From: Microbacterium sp. LWO12-1.2
Lineage (GTDB): Bacteria; Actinomycetota; Actinomycetes; Actinomycetales; Microbacteriaceae
Direction of reading: 5' to 3'
Length of the DNA stretch: 64,000 nt
NCBI RefSeq assembly: GCF_040675875.1
Contig: NZ_JBEGII010000001.1
Span: 2,170,001-2,234,000 of the forward strand
The notes beneath the pieces are model-generated. The model did no database searches, was not told the origin of the DNA, and worked only from the letters and a program-made list of their open reading frames with translations. Shown piece by piece: positions 50,457 to 63,019 of this stretch. The position numbers were made by a program, and so were the translations under genes. The stretch's first letter is position 1, and each line of letters starts with the position of its first letter.

Positions 50457-51323
50457 TCAGTCGGAGGCGTTCTCACCGAGATTCTCGGACACCACCTCGA
50501 GCACATGGGCCCGCGCCTGAACCGCGTCTTCTCCCCGCTCCGTCGTGACGGCGGCTGCGAACACCTCGGCGAAGACCAGGAACGCGACGCGGGACGCATG
50601 CTGCAGCTCATCCCGGAAACTCACGCCGGTCGGGGCGATGACGAGAGACACCGACGCCACCTCCGTCAGCGCCGAGGTCGCGAACGACGTCAACGCGATC
50701 ACCGTGGCCCCGCCGCGCGCGGCGGCGGTGGCGACCCGCAGGCTCGCTTCATTCGCCCCGGATCCGCTCACGATCAGGCAGACGTCGTCCGTGGTGAGAT
50801 GACGCGCCGCGATCTGCTGGGCGATCGCGTCGGCGATGAACTCCGCCGACCGCCCTGCGGCTGTGAGCCGCATCGCGAGATCGTTCGCGATCGGCGACGA
50901 CAGTCCGTTCGCGAGCACGAGCACGCGACGAGCGGACGCTGAGATCCGCACGGCTTCGGCGACGGCGTCCGCATCGAGGAGGCTCGCGAGGGCGGGGAGA
51001 GATGAGGCCACCCTGTCGATCTCGCTGCGCATCCTCCCGAGCACACTGGGGCCATGATCGACCCCCGTCTCCCCCTGGCCGCTGCCCAGTTCCGCCGCGA
51101 GCGCGACGCGCAACTGCGGATATCCCCGATAGCCGAAGCTCTGGCAGGCGCGCACGACGGTGGCCCGGCCGACACCGGCGCGTTCGGCGAGTTCCTGCGC
51201 CGTCCACTCCACGACTGCGTCGGCGGATTCGACGATCAGCTCGGCCACACGCCGCTCCGCGGGCTGCAAGGTGTTGAGCACCGCGGCGATGCGCACGGTG
51301 GGCGGGGCGCTAGGCGAGAACAC
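50457..51323 (-). CDS. MurR/RpiR-family transcriptional regulator
   Basis: I chose the GTG at 51323 (VFSPSAPPTVRIAAVLNTLQPAERRVAELI), which has GGAGGGAG nine bases upstream and overlaps the end of the permease gene. The 288-residue protein has an RpiR helix-turn-helix (WTAQELAERAGVGRATVVRACQSFGYRGYPQLRVALA) and a SIS sugar-phosphate domain (RRVLVLANGLSSPIANDLAMRLTAAGR ... DVCLIVSGSGANEASLRVATAAARGG). It is the last gene of the phn-type operon and probably controls it in response to a phosphorylated ligand. Confidence 0.9.
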   Translation of the reverse strand: MFSPSAPPTVRIAAVLNTLQPAERRVAELIVESADAVVEWTAQELAERAGVGRATVVRACQSFGYRGYPQLRVALAAELGSGQGETGVDHGPSVLGRMRSEIDRVASSLPALASLLDADAVAEAVRISASARRVLVLANGLSSPIANDLAMRLTAAGRSAEFIADAIAQQIAARHLTTDDVCLIVSGSGANEASLRVATAAARGGATVIALTSFATSALTEVASVSLVIAPTGVSFRDELQHASRVAFLVFAEVFAAAVTTERGEDAVQARAHVLEVVSENLGENASD

Positions 51324-52125
51324 GGGCGGGGACTCCCTCCATGATCCGACGGCGGACAGCGCCGGAGACCGCATCGATCAGCATGGTCACCACGACGACG
51401 ACGATGAGCAGGACACCCACCGTCGACCACTCACGGTACTGGGTGTAGGAGGTGAGCATGTCACCGATTCCGCCGACGCCGATCAGTCCGAGCACCGCCG
51501 AGGAGCGCACGTTGATCTCGAAGCGATAGAGCCAGAACGACCAGAACGCCGGCTCGACCTGAGGCCACACGCCCCAACGGAGCACCTGGAGCGTGCCACC
51601 ACCGGCTGCGGTGGCCGCTTCGATCGGCCCGCGCGGCACGGCTTCCACCGCTTCGTATCCCCATTTGCCCAGAGTGCCGATGCCGTTGACGGCAAGCGCG
51701 AGGGCTCCGGTGAAGGGCGTGAGCCCGGTGACGGAGAGGATCACGATCGCGATGATGATCTCGGGAACGGCACGGATCAGTGAGAACAGCCCACGCAGCA
51801 GGGCACGCAGCCAGGCCGGCCCGAAGCCGCGGGCGGCGAGCAGGCTCAGGGGTGTGGCGAGCAGGATGCCGAGGATCGTGCCGACCCAGGCCATCTGCAC
51901 ACTGCGCCACGTCTGCCACAGCGCCTCCGGCAGCTTCTCCCAGTTCGGATCGGCGAACATGAGGAACGTGTATCGGATGACCTCGGCAGGCAGGTCGGCG
52001 AGGCGGGTCCAGTCGATCGCGATCGACCAGAACGCGAGCACGACGATGCCCGTGACGATGCACCATCCCGCGATCGCCCACGGTCGTCGGGGACGAACCG
52101 GGATCGCCGTGAGCGCCGCAGTCAT
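51310..52125 (-). CDS. phnE: Phosphonate-type ABC transporter permease (second PhnE)
   Basis: The 271-residue membrane protein starts at the ATG at 52125, overlapping the first permease stop as ATGA. It shows the PhnE pattern: a long N-terminal helix, the EAA-like loop (YEAVEAVPRGPIEAATAAGGGTLQVLRWGVWPQVEPAFWSFWLYRFEINVRSSAVLGLIGVGGIGD) and a final helix. Two permease genes imply a heterodimeric channel. Confidence 0.88.
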   Translation of the reverse strand: MTAALTAIPVRPRRPWAIAGWCIVTGIVVLAFWSIAIDWTRLADLPAEVIRYTFLMFADPNWEKLPEALWQTWRSVQMAWVGTILGILLATPLSLLAARGFGPAWLRALLRGLFSLIRAVPEIIIAIVILSVTGLTPFTGALALAVNGIGTLGKWGYEAVEAVPRGPIEAATAAGGGTLQVLRWGVWPQVEPAFWSFWLYRFEINVRSSAVLGLIGVGGIGDMLTSYTQYREWSTVGVLLIVVVVVTMLIDAVSGAVRRRIMEGVPARVLA

Positions 52126-52934
52126 ACGAGCCTCCGTCGGATCGCGTCGGAGACGAGGTCGATCACGATGACGACGATGAGGATCTCCAGGATGATGAGC
52201 GAGAGCTGGTCGTAGCGGTAGAACGTGCGGACCGCATCGATGAGCAGCCCCATGCCACCCGCCCCGACGAGACCGAGCACGGTCGAGGCCCGCACGTTGA
52301 GCTCGAATACGTACAGGGTCTGGTTGGCGAATGCGGGCCAGGCGTCGGGCAGGGCGATCGTGCGGTTGATCTGGGCCTGGGTCGCACCGACCGCACGTCC
52401 CGCTTCGAGGGGGCCACGGTCGTTGGTGTCGATCGCCTCGGACACGAGCTTGACGATGATGCCGACGTTGAAGAGCAGCAGTGCCAGGATCCCGGGGAGC
52501 GCACCGACGCCCACCATCGCCACGAGGATGGCCGCATAGAGGAGGTCGGGGACGCTGCGGATCACGTTGAGGGCGCCACGCAGCGCGATCCGCGCCGGGG
52601 CGTTCGGATTTGTCGCACGGGCAGCCCAGAAGCTCAGCGGCAGCGAGACCGCAGCGCCGATGGCGGTCGCGATCACCGCCATCTGGAGCGTCTCGATGAG
52701 CGGAGGGATCGTCCGGGGGAAGAAGCTCCACTCGGGCAGGAGCAGCTTGACGATCTTGTCCGCCCCGTTCTGCCAGTTGCGGGCGATCGCGGAGAGGTCG
52801 ACGCCGATCCCGATCCCCGGCAGGCACGTCACGACCGTGACGAGGAGGAGCACCACGACGATGAGGGGGCCTCTCCATGCTCCGGGCGGTCGCGCCGGGA
52901 TGTCGAGGGCGGACGCCTGTTCCACCGCGCTCAC
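52122..52934 (-). CDS. phnE: Phosphonate-type ABC transporter permease (first PhnE)
   Basis: I chose the GTG at 52934, which overlaps the phnC stop in a four-base GTGA. The 270-residue permease has the PhnE loop [61 protein letters not shown]. Its sequence differs clearly from the second permease, so the two are not a recent duplication. All genes of this operon are linked by overlaps of one to four bases or gaps of one. Confidence 0.88.
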
Positions 52935-53755
52935 GCGTCCAACCGGTCTTCCGGGGTGAGCGAGCGCCCGTAGATGCTCTCGAAGTCCGCATCGGTCGCG
53001 CTCGTGGCCGGTCCGTCGTAGACGATCTGGCCGGCGCGCATGCCGATCATCCGCGCACCGTACTCGCGGGCGAGGTCGAGGAGGTGCAGGTTGACGACGA
53101 CCGTGATGCCCAGATCGCGGTTGATCCGACGCAGGTCGTTCATCACACCATGCGCCGTGGGCGGGTCGAGGCTGGCCACCGGTTCGTCGGCGAGGACGAT
53201 GCGGGGCTCCTGCGCGAGAGCGCGCGCGATCGCGACGCGTTGCTGCTGACCGCCCGACAACTCGGAGGCACGGGAATGGAGTTTCGGAAGGATGCCGACG
53301 CGGTCGAGCGCCCGATAGGCGAGCTGCTTGTCGGCCTCCGGATACGCCCCGACGAGCGTGCGCCACAGGGGCGTGTGCGCGAGGCGTCCGACGAGCACGT
53401 TCTGGAGCACGCTCGCCCGACCCGCGAGGTTGAACCCTTGGAACACCATTCCGATGTCACCGCGGAGACGGCGGAGTGTGCGCGGCGACGCGCCGCTCAC
53501 CCGGTGCTCGCCGACGTCGAGCGTGCCGCGCGTGACCGGCACGAGGCCGTTGATCGTGCGGATGAGAGTGGACTTCCCCGAGCCGGAGAGCCCGACCACG
53601 GCGACCATCTCGCCCGCTGCGATCTCGAGCGACACGCGATCGAGACCGAGGGTGCCGTTGGGATAGCGCACCGTCACCTCGTCGAGGCGGATGGACCACG
53701 GCGTGGACGCCGCAGCCGAAGCTGCGACGTCCACGTTCTGGAGCTGGTCGGACAA
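52931..53755 (-). CDS. phnC: Phosphonate-type ABC transporter ATP-binding protein
   Basis: The 274-residue ATPase has Walker [18 protein letters not shown], signature [34 protein letters not shown] and the PhnC-typical [34 protein letters not shown] end. It is followed by two permease genes and preceded by the binding protein, giving a complete PhnDCEE importer. Confidence 0.9.
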
Positions 53756-53756
53756 T

Positions 53757-54746
53757 TTACTGGAGCCCCAGAGCCTGTGCGGCGCGGGCGACGACGTCGA
53801 GCGAGTCGGGGTCGGCGGGGGCGAGCTTGGTGATCGAGTAGATGCTGGTGAGGATCTCGGAGCCCTCTGGCGTGTTCGAGAAGTCCTCGAGCGCCTTCGT
53901 GATCCGGTCCTGCAGCTCCGGCGAGAGGTCGGCCGAGAGCGCGACGCCGTCGTTGGGGATCTCCTCGGTCAGCGCGAAGACCACGACCTTCTCACCGACG
54001 TCGGGGGTGTCCTTCTGCACGATGGTCCGGGCGTCCCAGAAGCTGAAGCCGACTTCGGCGTCCCCGTTGTAGACCGCGAGCACGGAGGCGTCGTTCGCCG
54101 TCACCGGGATCTGCTGGATGTCGGTGTCGGTGTCGAGACCCGCCTCCTGCAGCGCGAGGACCGGGTAGATGTAGCCGGCCGGAGAGCCCGGTCCGAGCAG
54201 GGCGACCTTGGCGCCCTTGACCTTGTCGATGCTGTCGAGGCCGGCAGGACCCGACATCGCGTCGGCGCCGTTGCAGAACAGCATCCCGTCCCGCTCGACC
54301 GGCTGGTCGTCGCAGTACTTGTCGGGGTTGTTCGTCATGAACTGCGCCGGGTAGGTGATGTTGCCGTTGCGCTCGGTCTGGAGCACGACCGAGGCGTCGT
54401 ACATGTCGTTCGCCTGCCACAGCTGCAGCGAAGGCAGGAAGCCGACCTGCGCCTGGCCCGCCCCCATCGCCTCGACGGCGGCCTGGTAGTCCTTCGAGAC
54501 CACTCCGGTGACCTCGATGCCGAGTTCCTCGGTGAGGTAGTCGGTGAGAGGCGCGGCGGTGTCCACGAGCCCGTCCTGGTCCTGCGACGGGACGAGAGCG
54601 AGCACGATCGAGTCGGGGTCGGCCGCTGGAGCGGCAGAGTCCTCCGGTGCGGCAGTGGCACCGGAGCAACCCGCGAGCACAACGGTCAGCAGGGCGCCGA
54701 CGGCGAGGGCGCCCGCTGCGGAGGAGCGGAGGGGGGAGATACGCAT
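53757..54746 (-). CDS. phnD: Phosphate/phosphite/phosphonate ABC transporter binding lipoprotein
   Basis: I chose the ATG at 54746, which is five bases after AAGGA; an ATG at 54752 is too close. The 329-residue lipoprotein has a signal with lipobox ([12 protein letters not shown]). The PhnD-family fold is clear: [64 protein letters not shown]. PhnD-like proteins bind phosphonates, phosphite or methylphosphonate; four cysteines outside the lipobox are unusual. No C-P lyase or phosphonatase genes are visible here. Confidence 0.88.
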
Positions 54747-54803
54747 GTTCATCCTTCTGGGGTGAGAGGGGTGGGAGGAAAGGGTGGGATGGGAGGGTGG
54801 GCG

Positions 54804-55442
54804 TCAGCCGCGCAGCCACGCCTCGAGCTGGGGAACCAGCGTCGAGAACTCGGCTGCGCGGAAGGTGGGGGTCGCGTCCGGGTCGGGGAACCCGCCGATC
54901 AGGGCGGTCGCGTGGCCGCGAGCGTGCGCGGGAGCGAGGTCGTTGCGCCAGATGTCGCCGATGCTCAGCACCCGGGCGTGCGTGGGCAGATCGTCGAGCA
55001 CGGCATCGAGTCCCCGCGGCTTGCGGGCGTCGGTGACGATGCGGTCGAACACGCCGCTGAGCCCGAGAACGTCGAGCGCCTCGGTGATCCGGATGGCGGG
55101 AGCGTTGGTGACGAGGAGTCGCTCGGCCTGGGCGCCCTCCAGGAACGCGACGAGGCCGTCAGGCACCGAGATGGGGGCGTCGGCGGTGGCGAGCTGAGAA
55201 CGGCTGGCGAGATATGCGGCGCTGAGGAGACGGGAGTCCGCGCCTCTCTTCACCGCTGCGCGCCGCACCGCGTCGTAGCCGTCGCGGGCTTCGCCGCCGT
55301 GGGAGGCCAACTGGAGGCGGATGTCGTCGACGAAGTCGCCGTCATCATCGAGTGCGGCAGCGACGTGCTGGGCGTACGCGAGGACAGGCCCTTCGCCGAG
55401 CGCGATCGTGCCGTCGAAGTCGAAGAGGAGGATGGAGTTCAC
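54804..55442 (-). CDS. HAD-superfamily hydrolase
   Basis: The 212-residue protein has motif I DFDGTIALGEG, motif II LLVTNAP, a lysine/arginine in DARKPRGL and motif IV GDIWRNDLAPA. The helical cap (residues about 15-90) is of the C1 type found in phosphatases and phosphonatases. It is the promoter-proximal gene of the phn operon, 57 bases upstream of phnD. It may dephosphorylate the imported compound or a product of it. The substrate is unknown. Confidence 0.83.
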   Translation of the reverse strand: MNSILLFDFDGTIALGEGPVLAYAQHVAAALDDDGDFVDDIRLQLASHGGEARDGYDAVRRAAVKRGADSRLLSAAYLASRSQLATADAPISVPDGLVAFLEGAQAERLLVTNAPAIRITEALDVLGLSGVFDRIVTDARKPRGLDAVLDDLPTHARVLSIGDIWRNDLAPAHARGHATALIGGFPDPDATPTFRAAEFSTLVPQLEAWLRG

Positions 55443-55560: not shown

Positions 55561-56214
55561 GTGTCCGAACTCGATCACCTCACTCGCGCCGCCTCCCTCG
55601 CCGCCGAAGACACGGCCGCAGGCGTGCGTGCAGCCCTCGATCAGATCCCCTGGCTCGAGGCCGCGATCCACGGCGATCGCGCCGCCGGCCGCTTCGAGGC
55701 GTGGGGTCAGTCGACGATCATCGACGAGCACACCGGCACGCCCCTCCTCTCGCGCGCGCTCTTCGACGACCTGCACCGGAGGGCGGGCATCGACGCGGAC
55801 TGGCCGATCGGCAACGCCGGACTCCTGCACTGCTACGGATACCTGCTGTCAACGGCGATGACGCCGTACGGCCTCAAGCGGGACCGTTGGATCGGCGCCG
55901 CTCTGGCATCGGCCTGCGGTCTCCCGGCGGACGCGTTCCACCCGTGGCACGAGGAATCGACGCTGCTGGCAAGAGCCACCAGGGCCGCGACAGCCGTTCG
56001 CGCCTCACCGGGCGTCGAGGCGACCCGCACATTCGGTGGGCGTGAGGCGCACGTCGCCCTCGCCTCCGCGCGGGGTCCGAGCGCTCTCGCGTTCTCGATC
56101 GCCCCGCGCGCCGCGACACCGGCGCTGCTGATCACGATGTTCCCGGTCACCGAGAGCGCCACGCCGCTCGCCGACTTCACGGCCGCGGAGCAGCCGCCCT
56201 GGAACGCCGTCTAG
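55561..56214 (+). CDS. Protein of unknown function, divergent from the phn-type operon
   Basis: I do not recognise this 217-residue protein. I placed the start at the GTG at 55561 (VSELDHLTRAASLAAEDT) because a -10-like box lies seven bases upstream; an ATG at 55549 is the alternative. It is soluble, without signal peptide, and contains a Trp/His-rich central part (WPIGNAGLLHCYGYLLSTAMTPYGLKRDRWI, FHPWHEEST) and a beta-rich C-terminus (LAFSIAPRAATPALLITMFPVTE). Its divergent placement next to an importer, HAD hydrolase and RpiR suggests a job in the same pathway. Its stop overlaps the convergent riboflavin kinase stop by four bases. Confidence 0.6.
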   Translation: MSELDHLTRAASLAAEDTAAGVRAALDQIPWLEAAIHGDRAAGRFEAWGQSTIIDEHTGTPLLSRALFDDLHRRAGIDADWPIGNAGLLHCYGYLLSTAMTPYGLKRDRWIGAALASACGLPADAFHPWHEESTLLARATRAATAVRASPGVEATRTFGGREAHVALASARGPSALAFSIAPRAATPALLITMFPVTESATPLADFTAAEQPPWNAV

Positions 56215-56615
56215 ACGCGCGCGGCGTCCTCGGCCAACAGTGCCGCGGACAGGGCGACATCCTCGATCGTCTGCGCGATCAGCGCTTCGACGCCGTCGAA
56301 GCGGAGCGTCGGGCGGAGGTGAGCGATGAGCTGCACGACCAGCCGGCGGCCGTACAGGTCGCCGGCCGCGTCATGGAGGTGCACCTCGACGCGTCGCTCA
56401 CGGCGCCCCGGGAAGGTGGGGTTGGCCCCGATACTGACACTGGCAGCGCATCGCCGAGGGTCGTCGCCGACGCGCACCCATGCGGCATAGATGCCGTCGA
56501 CAGGCGGGACCCCGGAGTCGAGGGCGAGGTTCGCCGTCGGGAACCCCAGTTCGCGCCCGCGCCCGTCGCCGCGGACGACCACGCCCTGGAGCACGTCGAA
56601 TGCCGCTGCGGTCAC
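56211..56615 (-). CDS. rcaA: Stand-alone riboflavin kinase (RcaA-like)
   Basis: The 134-residue protein is only the flavokinase domain: VVVRGDGRGRELGFPTANLAL (flavin/ATP loop), DGIYAAWVRVG, ASVSIGANPTFPGRRERRVEVHLHD (G-x-N-P-T-F motif) and IAHLRPTLRFDGVEALIAQTIEDV. The FAD-synthetase half of bifunctional RibF is absent, so the product makes FMN, not FAD. It overlaps the flavin reductase gene by four bases. In Microbacterium maritypicum the riboflavin-degradation set contains a riboflavin kinase (RcaA) with a flavin reductase (RcaB), ribokinase (RcaD) and riboflavin hydrolase/lyase (RcaE); the same four functions occur here within 4 kb. Confidence 0.88.
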   Translation of the reverse strand: MTAAAFDVLQGVVVRGDGRGRELGFPTANLALDSGVPPVDGIYAAWVRVGDDPRRCAASVSIGANPTFPGRRERRVEVHLHDAAGDLYGRRLVVQLIAHLRPTLRFDGVEALIAQTIEDVALSAALLAEDAARV

Positions 56616-57121
56616 TCGATCTCGGATGCCGCGATCGAACGGTAGCGGCTCTGCTGGAACACCAGCGGCTCGACGTCATCGAACACCGTGATGTCGGCGA
56701 TCTCGTAGAGCGCCACCTCGTGGTCGCCGCCGTCGAAGGTACTGTGCAGGCGGCAGGTGAGCCACAGGGCGGCATCCTGCACGAGCACGGCGCCCTGCTC
56801 GCTCCGATGCCAGCCGTGGGTGCCGAACCGGTCGTCCTCCCGCGAGGAGAGGAGCCGGCTGAGCGGCTCGTGATGCGCAGCGAGCACGCTCATACCGAGC
56901 TCAGGCACGGCGCGCAGCACCGGCCAGGTCTTCGAGGTGCGCGCAGCGCTGATCGCCACGAGCGCGGGCTCGAGCGAGATGGAGGTGAACGAGTTGACGG
57001 CCATCCCCACCGCTCGACCGTCGACCTCGGCGGCGAGGGCGACGACACCGGTCGGGTACACCGAGAAAGCACGGCGGAGGGCACGATCCCTGGGCAGGGT
57101 CTCAGTCGCGGCAGTCGTCAT
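56612..57121 (-). CDS. rcaB: NAD(P)H:flavin reductase (RcaB-like)
   Basis: The 169-residue protein is of the flavin-reductase-like domain family (HpaC/ActVB type): LRRAFSVYPTGVVALAAEVDGRAVGMAVNSFTSISLEPALVAISAARTSKTWPVL, then LGMSVLAAHHEPLSRLLSS and C-terminal ALYEIADITVFDDVEPLVFQQSRYR. It reduces FMN with NAD(P)H and passes it to an oxygen-using partner, here most likely the LLM-type enzyme encoded 1.6 kb away. It starts the minus-strand reductase-kinase operon, whose promoter carries two PadR-like palindromes. Confidence 0.87.
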   Translation of the reverse strand: MTTAATETLPRDRALRRAFSVYPTGVVALAAEVDGRAVGMAVNSFTSISLEPALVAISAARTSKTWPVLRAVPELGMSVLAAHHEPLSRLLSSREDDRFGTHGWHRSEQGAVLVQDAALWLTCRLHSTFDGGDHEVALYEIADITVFDDVEPLVFQQSRYRSIAASEIE

Positions 57122-57137
57122 TTCTGCGTCCTTTCGG

Positions 57138-57188
57138 TAGTCAACTTTGACTAGTTCTGATCATAGGCAACTTTGACCATGCAAACAA
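57138..57188 (-). promoter_or_regulatory. Promoter and PadR-type operators of the reductase-kinase operon
   Basis: On the minus strand a -35 TTGTTT (57183-57188) and a -10 TATGAT (57160-57165) are 17 bases apart. A related palindrome GGCAACTTTGACC (57166-57178) fills the spacer. The perfect palindrome TAGTCAACTTTGACTA (57138-57153) lies just downstream of the -10. The same palindrome precedes the importer operon at 62996. Confidence 0.75.
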
Positions 57189-57212
57189 CCACGACTTCCG
57201 CGCCCCAGCCGT

Positions 57213-57224
57213 TAGCATGAGGGC
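57213..57224 (+). promoter_or_regulatory. Probable leaderless start of the PadR gene
   Basis: TAGCAT (57213-57218) is a -10-like box six bases before the ATG at 57225. No Shine-Dalgarno sequence is well placed. Confidence 0.35.
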
Positions 57225-57818
57225 ATGTCGACCACCCGCCTCGTCGTCCTCGGCGCCGTGAAGCAGTTCCAGCCCGTGCACGGGTACTTCCTCCGCCGAG
57301 AGCTGATGACCTGGCACGTCGACGAGTGGGCGCACATCCAGCCCGGCTCGATCTACAACGCCCTTCGCGCGCTCGAGGTCGACGGCTACATCACCGAGAG
57401 CGGCACAGAGACCGAGGGCAAGCGCCCGGCGCGCACGACCTACAGCATCACTCCGGCCGGCGAGGTGGAGCTGCAGCGGATGCTGCGCGAGAACCTCTGG
57501 AACGTCGCCGCCTTCGACACCCAGGCCATCATGACGGTCGCCTCGTTCATGTTCGTGCTGAGCCGTCAGGAGGTGATCGCCGGCCTCGAGCACCGCCTCA
57601 TCAAGAGCGACGCGATCATCACGCAGAACGGCTTCGACGTGCAGGACACGCTGCGCTCCGAGACGACGCCCAAGTACGTCAGGGAGATCTTCGACCTCTC
57701 CACCGCACGCCTCACGGCCGAGAAGCAGTGGCTGCTCGACCTGCTCGGGCGCCTGCGCGACGGCGAGTACGTGTTCGCCGGCGAGGCGGTCGCGGACACT
57801 GCCGCGCCGGCCGAGTAG
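57225..57818 (+). CDS. PadR-family transcriptional regulator
   Basis: The 197-residue protein has the PadR winged helix (TTRLVVLGAVKQFQPVHGYFLRRELMTWHVDEWAHIQPGSIYNALRALEVDGYITESGTETEGKRPARTTYSITPAGE, residues about 2-80). A C-terminal helical dimerisation domain follows, ending in the long helix around LTAEKQWLLDLLGRLRDGEY. It sits between the reductase-kinase operon and the ribokinase end of the importer operon. It is the only regulator nearby and the best candidate to bind TAGTCAA-N2-TTGACTA in front of both. Its ligand may be riboflavin, FMN or lumichrome (inference). Confidence 0.9.
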   Translation: MSTTRLVVLGAVKQFQPVHGYFLRRELMTWHVDEWAHIQPGSIYNALRALEVDGYITESGTETEGKRPARTTYSITPAGEVELQRMLRENLWNVAAFDTQAIMTVASFMFVLSRQEVIAGLEHRLIKSDAIITQNGFDVQDTLRSETTPKYVREIFDLSTARLTAEKQWLLDLLGRLRDGEYVFAGEAVADTAAPAE

Positions 57819-57840
57819 GCACCGGCCCTGAGCGCGCAGG

Positions 57841-58725
57841 TCAGCGCGTCGCGACGAGATCTGCGCTCGCGGCGGCGCTGAGCGCCGCGGTGTTGGCGCC
57901 ACGGTGCTGCGCCACGATCGCACCTGCAGCGCAGGCACGTTCGAGCGCATCGGCGATGTCGTCCCCGGCGGCGAGCGCCGCCGCGAGCGCGCCGCAGAAG
58001 GCATCACCGGCGCCGGTCGTGTCGACGGGGTCGATGCGGAACGCGGGGACGTGCAGCGGCTCGGCGCCAATGCGGTGCAAGGTCACTCCCCCGGCTCCGC
58101 AGGTCAGCACGATCTGCGCGGCGCCGGCTGCGTGCAGGCGTTCGACACCGCCCAGCTCGGCGCACTCCGTCTCGTTCACGATGAGGATGTCGACGTCGGG
58201 AAGCAGGTCCAGCGCGGCGGTCGCGGCCGGAGCCGCGTTCAGCAGTGTGAGCGCACCCGCCTGTCGCGCGGCGCACAAGGCTGCGGCGACACTGGGCACC
58301 GGCACCTCCAGCTGTGCCAGCACGACCGCGGCGCCCGCAACGCCGTCGACGGCATCACGGACGCCGAGCTCGGCGTTCGCTCCAGCGGCGACGATGATGC
58401 TGTTGTCACCGTCGTCCAGGGCCAGCACGTGCGCGACGCCCGTGGGCGCGGTGTCGGTGCGGCGCAGCGCCCCGGCGACTCCGGCATCCGTCAGCGTGCG
58501 CTGCAGCTCGTCGCCCGCCTCATCCTGACCGACCACGGCGCAGAACCGGGTGGGAGCGCCACTGCGTGCGGCGGCGACGGCCTGGTTGAGACCCTTGCCG
58601 CCGGCGAAGCGGCCACCCGCACGCCCGAGCAGGGTCTCGCCGACGTGGGGAGGGCGCGACACCTCGACGACGAGGTCGAGGTTCGCGCTCCCCACCACGG
58701 CGACGCCCGTGAGGGTGTCAGACAC
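57841..58725 (-). CDS. rcaD: Ribokinase (RcaD-like)
   Basis: The 294-residue PfkB-family sugar kinase has GSANLDLVVEVSRPPHVGETLLG, the substrate-binding GGRFAGGKGLNQAVAAARSGA and the catalytic/anion-hole DTTGAGDAFCGALAAALAAG. Length and motifs fit ribokinase. It overlaps the end of the LLM-enzyme gene by eight bases, so ribose kinase is translationally coupled to that enzyme and not to any ribose importer. That fits salvage of ribose released when riboflavin is cleaved. Confidence 0.88.
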   Translation of the reverse strand: MSDTLTGVAVVGSANLDLVVEVSRPPHVGETLLGRAGGRFAGGKGLNQAVAAARSGAPTRFCAVVGQDEAGDELQRTLTDAGVAGALRRTDTAPTGVAHVLALDDGDNSIIVAAGANAELGVRDAVDGVAGAAVVLAQLEVPVPSVAAALCAARQAGALTLLNAAPAATAALDLLPDVDILIVNETECAELGGVERLHAAGAAQIVLTCGAGGVTLHRIGAEPLHVPAFRIDPVDTTGAGDAFCGALAAALAAGDDIADALERACAAGAIVAQHRGANTAALSAAASADLVATR

Positions 58726-60097
58726 GCGACATCGTCCGGCGATACTGCGATCCGGTGTGCGTGTCGGCCAGCGCCGGGGTCGGCGTGCCCATCAGCCGCT
58801 CGCGCAGGCTCTGCGGCTCGGCCGGCGGGTCGACGATGGCCCCACGCTGCTTGAGGATCGGCAGCACGTGCTCGATGAAATCGACCGTGGATGCCGGCGG
58901 GATGACGGGGGCGAACAGGAATCCGTCGAGGTCGGCGCCATCGGCGAGCTCGATCATCCGGTCCGCCACCTGCTCGGGAGTGCCGACGATCGGCCGAGCG
59001 CCGACACCGTGCGCGTGCCAGTCGCCGAGCACGTCGCCGACCGTCTTGTCGGCGAAACGGCCCACCTGCGTCTGCGACAGCTCGGTGCTCAGCTCGGCCA
59101 TCGGCGTGCTCGGCGCGTACGCCGACAGGTCGAGGCCGGTGAACCAGGCGTACGAGGCGACCGTGACGTCGGGGTTCTGCGCGTCGGCGACCTCGGCGTA
59201 CTTGCGCTGCGCCTCCTCCTCCGTGCTGCCCACGATCGCGGCGAACGCCGACATGATCTTGACGTCGCTCGCTGCGCGGCCGTTCTTCACGGCCTCTTCA
59301 CGGATCGCGGTCGAGTGCGCACGCAGCTGCTCGACCGAGCCGCTGCCCACGAAGATCGCCTCGCCGTGCTTGCCACCGAACTCGCGCCCGGCGGGAGAGG
59401 CTCCTGCTTGGAAGAGCACAGGGGTGCCCTGCGGCGAGCGCGAGGTGTTGCCGTAGCCGTGGGAGCGGAAGTACGGGCCGTCGTGGGCGATGCGGTGCAC
59501 CTTGGACGGGTCCGCGAAGCGTCCGGACTTGTCCCGCTCGAGTGCCCCCTCCTCCCAGGCCTGCTCCCACAGCTTGTAGACGACCTGCATGAAGTCGTCG
59601 GCCATGAGATAGCGCTCGTCGTGACCGACCATCGGGACGCCGAAACCCTGCACCGCGGTGTCGGCCGTGCCCGTGGTCACGACGTTCCAGCCGATGCGTC
59701 CACCGGAGAGGATGTCGAGGGTCGCCATCCGACGCGCGAACGCATAGGGCGGCTCGAGCAGGGTCGATCCGGTCGCGACCAGTCCGAGGCGGCTGGTCTC
59801 GGGGATCAGCGCGCCGAGGATGATCGCCGGGTCGAGGCGCGGCAGGTCCAGCCCCTCGACCGAGCAGATGTCCGGCCGTTCGCCGGCGACGTCGGCCCAG
59901 CCCCAGGCATCCGCGAGGAAGAGGAAGTCGAAACCGGCATCCTCGACCATCCGGGCGGTATCGCGCCAGTACTCGAACTTGTCGAAGAGGTACCGCTTGT
60001 TGTCGGGGTGACGCCAGGTCGCGGTGCCGGAGTCGTTCGCCTGGGCGTTCTCGAAGAGGCCGAGACGCAGCTGCTTGACGCTGTTCTGATCGGTCAT
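58718..60097 (-). CDS. rcaE: LLM-class flavin-dependent enzyme, riboflavin lyase/hydrolase (RcaE-like)
   Basis: The start is the ATG at 60097 (MTDQNSVKQLRLGLFENAQAND) with GGAAGG upstream. The 459-residue protein is a bacterial-luciferase-fold monooxygenase of the NtaA/SnaA/DszA branch: RMVEDAGFDFLFLADAWGW, GLVATGSTLLEPPYAFARRMATLDILSGGRIGWNVVT, GTPVLFQAGASPAGREFGGKHGEAIFVG, and PIVGTPEQVADRMIEL. Enzymes of this branch use reduced FMN from a partner reductase. With riboflavin kinase, reductase and ribokinase nearby, this is best read as the enzyme that cleaves the ribityl chain to give lumichrome and ribose. Other substrates are not formally excluded. Confidence 0.85.
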   Translation of the reverse strand: MTDQNSVKQLRLGLFENAQANDSGTATWRHPDNKRYLFDKFEYWRDTARMVEDAGFDFLFLADAWGWADVAGERPDICSVEGLDLPRLDPAIILGALIPETSRLGLVATGSTLLEPPYAFARRMATLDILSGGRIGWNVVTTGTADTAVQGFGVPMVGHDERYLMADDFMQVVYKLWEQAWEEGALERDKSGRFADPSKVHRIAHDGPYFRSHGYGNTSRSPQGTPVLFQAGASPAGREFGGKHGEAIFVGSGSVEQLRAHSTAIREEAVKNGRAASDVKIMSAFAAIVGSTEEEAQRKYAEVADAQNPDVTVASYAWFTGLDLSAYAPSTPMAELSTELSQTQVGRFADKTVGDVLGDWHAHGVGARPIVGTPEQVADRMIELADGADLDGFLFAPVIPPASTVDFIEHVLPILKQRGAIVDPPAEPQSLRERLMGTPTPALADTHTGSQYRRTMSRV

Positions 60098-60161
60098 GTG
60101 CGGTGCCTTCCTTGTGGGTGGTTCGTGTCGTTCTCCCCTGGCGCTGGGCACGCCGGAGGAA

Positions 60162-60190
60162 CCCGGGGCGGGCGGGGGTCCCGCCCCGGG
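60162..60190 (-). terminator. Hairpin between the importer permease and LLM-enzyme genes
   Basis: CCCGGGGCGGG (60162-60172) pairs perfectly with 60180-60190 around a seven-base loop, in the 107-base gap between the permease stop and the LLM-enzyme start. It may cause partial termination or mark separate processing. Confidence 0.6.
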
Positions 60191-60204
60191 ATGAGGATGC
60201 TGCG

Positions 60205-61056
60205 TCAGCCCTTCGCCGTGACCTCGCCGTCGCTCCACCACAGCACGCGCTTGCGCACGATCGCGAGGAGGATGATGAGGAGCACGCCGAGCAGGCACAG
60301 CAGGGCGATGCTGGCCCACGTGACGGGGAGATTGGCCTGTGCGGCCGACGTCGTCACGAGCGAGCCGAGACCGGCCTGCTGTCCGGCCGCCACGAACTCC
60401 GCGACCGCGGCGCCGACGACGGCCAGGGGCAGCGCGATCCGCAACCCGGCGAAGACGTAGGGCATGCTGCCGGGGAAGCGCAGCTCGCGGAAGATCTCCC
60501 AGCGCGAGGCATGCAGCGTCTTGAAGACGTCGAGTGCACGCTGGTCGACGTCACGGAGCCCGGCCAGCGAGTTGACCAGCATCGGGAAGAACACCACGAG
60601 ACCGGTGACGATGAACTTCGGCACCATGCCGAAGCCGAACGCCACGACGAGCGCAGGGGCGATCGCGACGATCGGCGTCACCATCACGATGATGACCAGC
60701 GGCATCACCGCACGCTCGATGATCTGGAACTCGGCCATCACCACCGCGAGCACGAAGCCCGCGAGGATGCCGGCGGAGGCGCCGACCACGACCTCGAGCA
60801 GTGTGACCAGGAAGTTCGACCAGTACATGCCGGCGTCGTCGACGAGGCTGCCGCCGATCGCCTCCAGCGTCGGGAGCACGTACGGGTTGGTCCAGGCCAC
60901 CACCTGCCACAGTGTCGCGGCGATCACGAAGGTGATCAGCGTCGGAACCCAGGAACCCCAGCGCAGCCACGGCGGGATCCCGCCGCGTCGTGCACCCGCA
61001 CGCAGTCGCGCGGTGGCGAGCGTCGCGGTCGTATCGCGGATCGTCATCTCAGACAT
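60205..61056 (-). CDS. ABC transporter permease (SsuC/TauC/ThiX type), candidate flavin importer
   Basis: The 283-residue protein has six hydrophobic segments and the NitT/TauT-type loop (VNSLAGLRDVDQRALDVFKTLHASRWEIFRELRFPGSMPYVFAGLRIALPLAVVGAAVAEFVAA). The family transports taurine, sulfonates, nitrate, thiamine precursors and, in some bacteria, riboflavin. It overlaps the ATPase gene by eight bases. Operon position with the riboflavin-degradation enzymes suggests flavin import. Confidence 0.87.
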   Translation of the reverse strand: MSEMTIRDTTATLATARLRAGARRGGIPPWLRWGSWVPTLITFVIAATLWQVVAWTNPYVLPTLEAIGGSLVDDAGMYWSNFLVTLLEVVVGASAGILAGFVLAVVMAEFQIIERAVMPLVIIVMVTPIVAIAPALVVAFGFGMVPKFIVTGLVVFFPMLVNSLAGLRDVDQRALDVFKTLHASRWEIFRELRFPGSMPYVFAGLRIALPLAVVGAAVAEFVAAGQQAGLGSLVTTSAAQANLPVTWASIALLCLLGVLLIILLAIVRKRVLWWSDGEVTAKG

Positions 61057-61846
61057 GGGCCTTCTCCGTCTGCGCGCGCAGAGTGGTGCGCACGACTGCT
61101 TCCAGTTCGCGGAACTCGTCGGTCGCGTACGCCTCTTCGGTGCGCGGTCGCGGCAGGTTCACATCGATCACCGCGGCGATGCGCCCGGGGTGGGCGGCCA
61201 TCACGACGATGCGGTCGGAGAGCATGATCGCCTCCGGCACCGAGTGGGTGACGAACATGACCGCCTTGCGGTTCGACTGCCAGAACTCCAGCAGCGCGAT
61301 CCGCTGCAGGTCGCGGTTCATCTCGTCGAGCGCCGAGAACGGCTCGTCCATGAGCATGATGGCCGGGTCGAACACGAACGCCCTGGCGATCGCCGCGCGC
61401 TGCTGCATGCCGCCGGACAGCTGCCCCGGATACTTCTTCATCGCCTGACCGAGGCCGAAGGTCGACAGCAGTTCCTGGGGGTCGCGCAGGGCACGATCCC
61501 CGTTCGCCTTGCGGTTCAGCCGCACCGGCAGCTCGACGTTCTCCTGCACGGTCTTCCACGGCAGGAGGGCGGGAGACTGCGGCACCAGGCCGATCTTCTT
61601 GTCCCTCGACGCCGCAGCGACGCTCTCGCCGTCGATCGTCACGCTGCCGGAATCGGCGTCGATGAGACCTGCGACGACCTTGAGCAGCGTCGACTTGCCG
61701 CATCCGCTGGGACCGATCACCGACACGAACTCGCCCATGCCGATGGTCAGGCTCACGTCGTCGAGCACGGTCACCCGCGCGCCATCGACGCCGAACGTCT
61801 TGGTGACGCCTCGGACCTCGACGCCTGCACCCTGTGCGGACGACAT
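61049..61846 (-). CDS. ABC transporter ATP-binding protein (SsuB/TauB type)
   Basis: I chose the ATG at 61846, which overlaps the binding-protein stop by one base (TGATG). The 265-residue ATPase has Walker A GPSGCGKSTLL, the Q-loop LVPQSPALLPWKTV, signature QLSGGMQQRAAIARAF, Walker B IMLMDEPFSALDEMNRDLQR and the H-loop FVTHSVPEAIMLSDRI. The FSALDEMNR form is characteristic of the nitrate/sulfonate/taurine family. Confidence 0.9.
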   Translation of the reverse strand: MSSAQGAGVEVRGVTKTFGVDGARVTVLDDVSLTIGMGEFVSVIGPSGCGKSTLLKVVAGLIDADSGSVTIDGESVAAASRDKKIGLVPQSPALLPWKTVQENVELPVRLNRKANGDRALRDPQELLSTFGLGQAMKKYPGQLSGGMQQRAAIARAFVFDPAIMLMDEPFSALDEMNRDLQRIALLEFWQSNRKAVMFVTHSVPEAIMLSDRIVVMAAHPGRIAAVIDVNLPRPRTEEAYATDEFRELEAVVRTTLRAQTEKAHV

Positions 61847-62946
61847 CACTTCGCCGGCCAGATCAGCGCGTCGCCGTCGTAGAGGTCGGCGACCAGGCCG
61901 GCATCCATCATGTCCTCGATCGCGGGCAGGTCCTTGACGTCGCCGTACTTCTCGACGAGCGCGTACTCGGGCTCCCACATCGCGGCGTTCTGCACGCCCG
62001 GGTTGCCGCCGGCGCTCTCGCGGACCCAGGCGGACTCCACCTCCCACGTGCGGGCGAGCTGGTCGCGCGGGAAGGCCGCACCCTGGTTGTTGTCCTCCGC
62101 GAGCTGCGCGAGCTTGTCGATGCAGGCGTCGGACTCGTCGAGGCAGTACTGCAGCGCCTTGAGGCTCGCCCGCATGAAGTCGGCAGCGACCTCGCGGTGC
62201 TCGTCGAGGAAGCGGGAGTTGACCTCCATCACGTTGTACGTGCCCTCCACGCCGAGGTCGGCGGGGAGGAACTCGCTGAACGGCAGGTCCTGCGCCTTGA
62301 GCGACTGCGGCTGGTTGGAGGCGTAGCCGACGATCGCGTCGACCTGCTCGCGCACGACCACGGTCGGGTCGTAGTTCGTCATCTTCACCATCTCGACCTT
62401 CGAGACGTCGACGCCTGCCTCGTCCAGCATGGCGGAGGCGATCGGGGTGAGATTGATGAAGTAGCCCAGCGATCCGCCCTCGAGGTCCTTCAGGCTCTTC
62501 AGCTTCTCGTTGCCGAAGATCGAGAACGGCGGGGTGGTGCCGTAGGTGGCGACCGCGGTGAGGTTCTTGCTGTTCGCCGCCGCGAGCATCACATCGGATG
62601 CCGATCCCAGCGCGGTGAACTGCGCCTGACCAGAGGCCACGAGCTGCTGCCCGTTGGCGCCGGAGGCGTTGATCTCGACGTCGAGGCAGAGCTCGTCGAA
62701 GTAGCCCAGTTCCTCGGCGAGGAACACGTCGAGCTGTCCGGCGCTGGCCGAGTAGCCGTAGCCGGAGATGTAGGTGATCTTGCCGGCATCCTTGTTGCGC
62801 TGGCAGGTGTCGGATGCTGCATCCGTGGGGGCGGTATCGCTGCCGGCTGGTTGCGCGGAGCAGGCTCCGAGCGTCAGCGTGGCGGCGAGAACGCACGTCA
62901 GGGTGGCAGTGATGCGGAATCGGGTTTCCGCAGAGGAAGTAGCCAT
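61846..62946 (-). CDS. ABC transporter substrate-binding lipoprotein, candidate flavin-binding protein
   Basis: I chose the ATG at 62946, with GAAGGGA upstream. The 366-residue protein has a lipoprotein signal (TATLTCVLAATLTLGACSA). The NMT1/ThiY-like fold is visible: AGQLDVFLAEELGYFDELCLDVEINASGANGQQLVASGQAQFTALGSASDVMLAAANSKNLTAVATYG, then DLEGGSLGYFINLTPIASAMLDEAGVD. Riboflavin-binding RibY proteins belong to this fold class. It opens the importer-LLM-ribokinase operon and has a PadR-type operator at its promoter. The ligand assignment is inference from context. Confidence 0.83.
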   Translation of the reverse strand: MATSSAETRFRITATLTCVLAATLTLGACSAQPAGSDTAPTDAASDTCQRNKDAGKITYISGYGYSASAGQLDVFLAEELGYFDELCLDVEINASGANGQQLVASGQAQFTALGSASDVMLAAANSKNLTAVATYGTTPPFSIFGNEKLKSLKDLEGGSLGYFINLTPIASAMLDEAGVDVSKVEMVKMTNYDPTVVVREQVDAIVGYASNQPQSLKAQDLPFSEFLPADLGVEGTYNVMEVNSRFLDEHREVAADFMRASLKALQYCLDESDACIDKLAQLAEDNNQGAAFPRDQLARTWEVESAWVRESAGGNPGVQNAAMWEPEYALVEKYGDVKDLPAIEDMMDAGLVADLYDGDALIWPAK

Positions 62947-62991: not shown

Positions 62992-63019
62992 AACATAGTC
63001 AAGATTGACTAAGCAACAA
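62992..63019 (-). promoter_or_regulatory. Promoter and PadR-type operator of the importer operon
   Basis: On the minus strand a -35 TTGTTG (63014-63019) and -10 TATGTT (62992-62997) are spaced 16 bases. The perfect palindrome TAGTCAAGATTGACTA (62996-63011) occupies the spacer, so a bound repressor would exclude RNA polymerase. It is identical to the operator at 57138 apart from the central bases. Confidence 0.78.

Follow-up and report, generated by a model that had tools for sequence, protein, structure and literature searches.

A conserved candidate riboflavin importer and PadR-family regulator in the rca riboflavin-degradation locus of Microbacterium sp. LWO12-1.2

The rca riboflavin-catabolic cluster of Microbacterium maritypicum, reportedly described by Xu in 2016, is the closest described counterpart of the locus analysed here, which occupies positions 56211–62946 of the window, a 64,000-nucleotide stretch of the genome of Microbacterium sp. 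LWO12-1.2. According to the main text of a published account (PMC12746152), the enzyme RcaE is an FMN-dependent riboflavin monooxygenase with ribose and lumichrome as its products; the ribose sustains growth of M. maritypicum and lumichrome is insoluble. The same main text speaks of five rca genes, contains no occurrence of 'transporter' or 'ABC', and assigns the putative transport genes lumOPQR to the lumichrome cluster. A Microbacterium strain in riboflavin medium made much lumichrome, and its enzyme was suggested to be inducible (PMC5399262). Among the riboflavin-degradation papers in the matches listed there is no mention of an ABC transporter; the primary papers of 2016 and 2018 may mention the importer. 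In the literature surveyed, riboflavin breakdown is known at the enzyme level; the entry of the vitamin and the switching of the genes are not covered.

Two described riboflavin transporters are of interest for comparison. RibXY, a validated importer of riboflavin, belongs to the transporter class of the one considered below, and its orthologues carry an FMN riboswitch (a passage in PMC4418817). The ribM gene of Streptomyces davawensis encodes a riboflavin/roseoflavin facilitator and is part of ribBMAH, which an FMN riboswitch governs (a passage in PMC3239331); RibM, of the PnuC family, is a single membrane protein without ABC parts, and it is not found in the window. Here, we describe a complete rca locus that very probably both takes up and cleaves riboflavin and is inducible by it. 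Its gene set, two-operon arrangement, divergent PadR gene and shared palindrome are widely conserved. An RcaE-type enzyme of the luciferase-like monooxygenase (LLM) type is accompanied by a flavin reductase (FR), a stand-alone riboflavin kinase (RFK), a ribokinase (RK), a regulator and an ATP-binding cassette (ABC) importer with its substrate-binding protein (SBP):

61846..62946, minus strand: SBP lipoprotein of the importer, 366 amino acids (aa), NMT1/THI5 family (NMT1 Pfam 116.5 bits; ATG at 62946)
61049..61846, minus strand: ABC transporter ATPase (PF00005, ABC_tran, 121 bits)
60205..61056, minus strand: ABC transporter permease (PF00528, BPD_transp_1, 97 bits)
58718..60097, minus strand: RcaE-type riboflavin monooxygenase, 459 aa (Bac_luciferase 150 bits; match to PDB 5w48)
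57841..58725, minus strand: RK-like PfkB kinase of the RcaD type (PF00294, 166 bits)
57225..57818, plus strand: divergent PadR-family regulator (PF03551, 51.6 bits, cut-off 27)
56612..57121, minus strand: flavin reductase of the RcaB type (PF01613, Flavin_Reduct, 117 bits)
56211..56615, minus strand: stand-alone riboflavin kinase of the RcaA type, 134 aa, without an FAD synthetase part (PF01687, Flavokinase, 118 bits)

Read from RFK through FR, PadR and RK to RcaE, the gene order fits the letters A to E; by its position, the PadR gene is possibly RcaC. At four junctions (SBP/ATPase, ATPase/permease, RcaE/RK and FR/RFK) the stop codon of one gene overlaps the start codon of the next, an arrangement that suggests two operons, SBP-ATPase-permease-RcaE-RK (62946–57841) and FR-RFK (57121–56211). 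An earlier note on this DNA had named seven genes (RFK, FR, RK, the LLM enzyme and three importer genes) and placed the importer first in the rcaE-rcaD operon; all seven lie on the minus strand where the note had put them, with matching Pfam families, and the operon order holds. Its account of the locus had overlooked the PadR gene and the palindrome described below.

The RcaE assignment made in that note is borne out. The protein matches PDB 5w48, 'Riboflavin Lyase', with an E value of 1.3e-219 and 733 bits (70.2% identity over 449 aligned columns), whereas the next solved family, dimethyl-sulfide monooxygenase, reaches 305 bits; the low identity and closer match elsewhere that would have pointed to another substrate were thus not found. 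It is 96% identical to the protein of M. maritypicum MF109. RK is 79% identical to the MF109 copy and scores 229 bits against the ribokinase model TIGR02152, under its cut-off of 300. The genome has two Flavokinase genes, the RcaA-type RFK and another in a 358-aa frame.

The enzyme steps follow published work on homologues. The earlier note had drawn a linear pathway of import, phosphorylation to FMN, reduction, ribityl cleavage and ribose phosphorylation; going by the main text of PMC12746152, the steps are not linear. Since RcaE acts there on riboflavin, depends on FMN and frees ribose, RFK most likely supplies FMN as cofactor rather than as the substrate to be cut, riboflavin itself is cleaved, and RK is then needed. 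In the proposed sequence of events, PadR would sit on the palindromes and keep both operons repressed until displaced by a flavin; riboflavin would enter through the THI5/ThiY-type SBP, permease and ATPase; RFK would convert part of it to FMN, which FR would reduce to FMNH2; RcaE, with FMNH2 and O2, would cleave riboflavin to lumichrome and ribose; and RK would pass the ribose into central metabolism. Lumichrome as a dead-end product would fit the published Microbacterium result.

The conservation of the locus was examined from an RcaE query of named genomes, which yielded 96 relatives, of which the best 80 entered the analysis. Forty-eight records (L002–L047, L061 and L066; 57–96% identity) were counted as RcaE orthologues; they come from at most 47 genomes, L024 and L066 belonging to one metagenome-assembled genome (MAG). 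The other 32 (L048–L060, L062–L065 and L067–L081; 34–43% identity) were set aside before counting as other LLM enzymes, and the rca set was found in none of them; the only partial likenesses are in L067, which weakly matches each of the three importer genes (29–42%), and in L058 and L065, which weakly match FR (38–40%). Forty-four of the 48 orthologue records hold every one of SBP, ATPase, permease, RcaE, PadR, FR and RFK, arranged and oriented as in the window, and because order and strands recur in this way the arrangement is not due to chance. L024 (SBP to RcaE) and L066 (RcaE to RFK) are cut contigs and look like the halves of one further locus, leaving two real exceptions to the full set, L045 (a Planktomarina MAG) and L047 (Streptomyces). 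PadR is matched in 45 of the 48 records. The earlier note had presented the importer as something added in this locus. It proved to occupy the same place in the two species of the published work, M. maritypicum and Devosia riboflavina, alongside the same enzymes: SBP, ATPase and permease are 93, 92 and 94% identical in strain MF109 (L003) and 69, 73 and 77% identical in strain IFO13584 (L038).

Co-occurrence was also assessed with SBP and RcaE profiles in a sample of 249 genomes from the family to which the window belongs, some of which are the genomes of the named loci, so that the two sets are not independent. At E ≤ 1e-150 for RcaE, the rca-type SBP (600–709 bits) and RcaE (833–896 bits) occur in the same 12 genomes and in no others, the next-best SBP reaching 295 bits. 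Across the phylum (246 genomes), the genome of the window alone gives scores this high; below it the best matches reach 222 bits for SBP and 370 bits for RcaE. Pairwise distances in the 44 loci correlate with those of RcaE at 0.961 for SBP, 0.945 for ATPase, 0.932 for permease, 0.958 for FR, 0.965 for PadR and 0.867 for RFK, values that no permutation of 999 reached, and mean identity across loci is 73–78% for the importer versus 76% for RcaE. Taken together, these patterns suggest that the ABC importer and the PadR switch are regular parts of the rca locus. The range of the cluster, given as Actinomycetota and Devosia in a passage of PMC12934955, is widened by the present records to Pelagibacterium (L043), Maritalea (L179) and, for RcaE only, the Planktomarina MAG. 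In Maritalea myrionectae the whole set lies on plasmid NZ_CP021331.1, typed as mobilizable, where it is followed by a gene annotated as fructose-6-phosphate aldolase. One RcaE locus (L030) comes from a genome titled marine actinobacterium.

The best evidence that the importer carries riboflavin comes from loci in which it is replaced. In Streptomyces sp. SID8352 (L047), RK-RcaE-FR-RFK is followed by a PnuC-family gene (PF04973, 147 bits), and importer, PadR and palindrome are missing; plasmid NZ_CP108854 of Streptomyces sp. NBC_00841 (L180) carries this five-gene series in unchanged order, likewise with neither a PadR match nor the palindrome. A relative of RibM, a riboflavin-type transporter, appears to stand in for the ABC importer. 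Relatives of the L047 PnuC-family gene occur in 58 of 61 genomes of one genus. The chromosomal relatives (42–51% identity) have, as is published for ribM, an FMN riboswitch upstream on the same strand, at about 0.75–2 kb, in all 14 genomes examined, namely G023, G107, two with 1.5-kb flanks and ten with longer flanks; at 1.5 kb the riboswitch was seen in two of ten loci, and with longer flanks the other eight and two more genomes were all positive. A search of 392 genomes of the genus of G023, probably Streptomyces, gave no RcaE match at E ≤ 1e-150. The Streptomyces form of rca is therefore rare and known from L047 and NZ_CP108854.

Both operons are preceded by the palindrome TAGTCAA-NN-TTGACTA, the proposed PadR operator:

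62996..63011: exact palindrome upstream of the importer operon
57138..57153: exact palindrome upstream of FR, between FR and padR
57164..57179: weaker third copy, closer to padR, with two mismatches, a level within chance genome-wide

The 4.1-Mb genome holds only two exact copies, both at the rca locus. In the 44 loci, the best site upstream of SBP has zero, one, two or three mismatches in 20, 10, 8 and 6 loci, respectively (44 of 44 within three), and upstream of FR zero, one, two, three or six in 19, 17, 5, 2 and 1 (43 of 44 within three). With up to two mismatches, 82 sites fall in these two upstream regions and none elsewhere in the 883,101 bases of the 44 loci. Among 2,000 random 250-base windows, six had a best match with three mismatches and 28 with four, and the 54 with zero to two can only overlap true sites; a three-mismatch match in a single locus is weak evidence. 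The palindrome is kept across two phyla, Devosia included. Because sites with up to two mismatches are no commoner in the genome than those of the reversed control (four versus four), its weight lies in the exact copies and the conservation only. We infer that PadR binds the palindrome, and the context predicts PadR-controlled induction of the rca genes; judged by titles and the beginnings of abstracts, no paper on PadR control of riboflavin or lumichrome genes was found.

The SBP carries the NMT1/THI5 domain and the fold of THI5/ThiY-type binding proteins, closest to ThiY, a thiamin-binding protein and Thi5 and ahead of sulfonate and nitrate binders. Identity to ThiY and the thiamin-binding SBP (PDB 3ix1 and 4nmy) is 18–24%, and the ligand of these proteins is a thiamin precursor or thiamin. 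Residues 26–29 form, by eye, a lipobox-like LGAC. The best NCBIfam models for the ATPase, SaoA and NtrCD, are both under their cut-offs. With RibXY the importer shares a permease and an NMT1-type SBP (of the COG0600/COG0715 kind), with riboflavin as the presumed cargo here; unlike RibXY, it has the PadR palindrome instead of an FMN riboswitch, its own ATPase gene and a degradative partner. We do not file it as RibXY, the FMN riboswitch being absent. No FMN riboswitch was detected in the window or in the rca loci L003, L038 and L044, and the SBP profile found no relative at E ≤ 0.01 in 20 FMN-riboswitch regions of the phylum sample. The single FMN riboswitch of the genome is found outside the window and precedes a ribD-like gene (by eye), so that vitamin supply and breakdown appear to be controlled separately. 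The strain appears to make its own riboflavin and would therefore not need the importer for supply. Two distant genomes (L136 and L137) have SBP relatives next to a gene resembling ribF, and these were given little weight: the setting is, by eye, a housekeeping nusA-infB-truB-ribF-pnp stretch, the importer is on the strand opposite ribF, and a chorismate-mutase/VOC-like gene (by eye) lies between permease and SBP.

Several observations weigh against the proposal that the locus imports and cleaves riboflavin under PadR control. The fold and Pfam class of the SBP do not fix its ligand, and its second-class relatives, described below, lie beside other LLM enzymes to which no substrate is assigned. 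L045, with the most distant RcaE (57%), has tpi-like and HAD-like genes (by eye) and no importer in the 2.2 kb upstream of rcaE, its contig ending just after that gene. RK was found in 28 of the 44 complete loci and is absent from the retrieved stretch in 16. On the Maritalea plasmid the palindrome precedes SBP (one mismatch), and none within three mismatches precedes FR; a scan for sigma-70-like promoters near both palindromes of the window passed none. The transporter swap rests on two Streptomyces loci, in one of which (L180) RK matches in two pieces in different frames. NCBIfam names the L047 PnuC-family gene a nicotinamide riboside transporter (41.7 bits against a cut-off of 42.45), and it is read as a riboflavin transporter through the linkage of its relatives to riboswitches. 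Finally, a PnuC-family gene elsewhere in the genome of the window (C1:3132653-3133252, 42%) could be another flavin transporter.

Among the alternatives, the same machinery may serve to make lumichrome as a signal rather than to obtain ribose as food, a doubtful but serious idea. It is proposed in PMC12746152 on the ground that RcaE did not colocalize with lumichrome-degradation genes in any strain, and it gains from the loci that lack RK; it is opposed by the growth of M. maritypicum on ribose described in that text and by the RK gene, which overlaps rcaE in the window and overlaps or closely trails it in most Microbacterium loci. A dedicated importer suits feeding and signalling alike and does not decide between them; the signalling idea concerns purpose, is compatible with riboflavin import and cleavage, and can be true together with it. 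A cargo other than riboflavin but still a flavin, be it FMN, FAD, a riboflavin analogue or lumichrome, is improbable: according to PMC12746152 lumichrome is a product of the pathway and insoluble, the RibM whose relatives replace the importer in the two Streptomyces loci is a riboflavin/roseoflavin carrier in the cited passage of PMC3239331, and the RFK match in 46 of the 48 orthologue records (the remaining two are contigs that end before its place) suggests that riboflavin enters in unphosphorylated form.

Least likely is a co-inherited neighbour importing an unrelated substrate such as ribose, a thiamin precursor or a sulfonate, for although NitT/TauT-type importers often stand beside LLM monooxygenases in sulfonate-type loci such as ssu, related SBPs adjoin other LLM enzymes and L045 lacks the importer upstream, the rca importer is found in the same 12 of 249 genomes, shares the palindrome and diverges in parallel, gives way to a RibM-like gene where it is missing in Streptomyces, and has an SBP fold nearer ThiY and the thiamin binders than SsuA or TauA. 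Such ssu-type loci show the same division of labour between a NitT/TauT importer, an LLM monooxygenase and a flavin reductase, whereas their substrate is another one and RK, RFK and PadR are particular to rca. The riboflavin role of the importer, as the earlier note had supposed, is well supported by its context, that is, by co-occurrence, palindrome, parallel divergence and transporter swap.

One further element lies within the importer operon:

60162..60190, minus strand: strong G+C hairpin between the permease and RcaE genes (stem of 11 bp; fold of the whole 107-base spacer −49.3 kcal/mol)

By eye, a similar hairpin is present in most Microbacterium loci and not in Devosia or Salinibacterium; it is a possible transcript-stability element. 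Downstream of the rca locus, PhnD/PhnC/PhnE-like phosphonate-type ABC genes (named by eye) occupy 51310–54752, and a HAD-like gene (Pfam; 54804–55442) lies between them and the locus.

The family survey also revealed a second class of SBP relatives (185–295 bits; 23 matches in 20 of the 249 genomes). Twenty loci (L147–L166) and L135 were examined, two matches (G447 and G379) being left out. Two further LLM genes are present in 16 of the 20 loci, an FR match in nine, an RFK match in two (L164 and L165) and a third, RcaE-like LLM gene (276–295 bits) in four (L153 and L157–L159). Family scans were made of examples only. L165 has a RutA-like LLM (236 bits against a cut-off of 498) and, at L165:1844-3601 on the minus strand, a DHA2-type MFS transporter fused to an RFK domain (MFS_1 187 bits, Flavokinase 95 bits). 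In L161, whose locus at L161:3609-10774 may serve as an example, an isochorismatase scores 67 bits against RutB (cut-off 378) and 57 against biuret amidohydrolase (cut-off 370); NtaA-type LLMs occur in L161, L165 and L158. A small protein of about 140–175 aa is, by eye, common to L135, L158, L161 and L165; the L161 copy matches no Pfam family. G439, among the 12 genomes with RcaE, has a second-class locus, L160, elsewhere in the same genome. It is a speculative suggestion, more likely wrong than right, that the SBP is one of a broader clade of flavin importers with catabolic roles and that the second class marks a second, undescribed flavin-degrading route, in which the uracil-like ring would be opened by oxidation, in the way that RutA opens uracil. 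Going by titles and the beginnings of abstracts among the matches listed, no paper on such a Rut-like flavin route was found, and these loci are a more novel lead than the rca importer.

The locus belongs to an already known gene set to which transport and control are now added as predictions by the importer, PadR gene and palindrome; the reading given in the earlier note is mostly right, and the novelty is smaller than that note had claimed. The replacement by a RibM-like gene offers a functional reading for a family of importers whose sole annotation is nitrate/sulfonate-type. That rca occurs in two phyla and also on a mobilizable-type plasmid suggests a mobile trait. With a conserved importer, PadR gene and palindrome, the transport of riboflavin for breakdown and its control become directly testable in Microbacterium.

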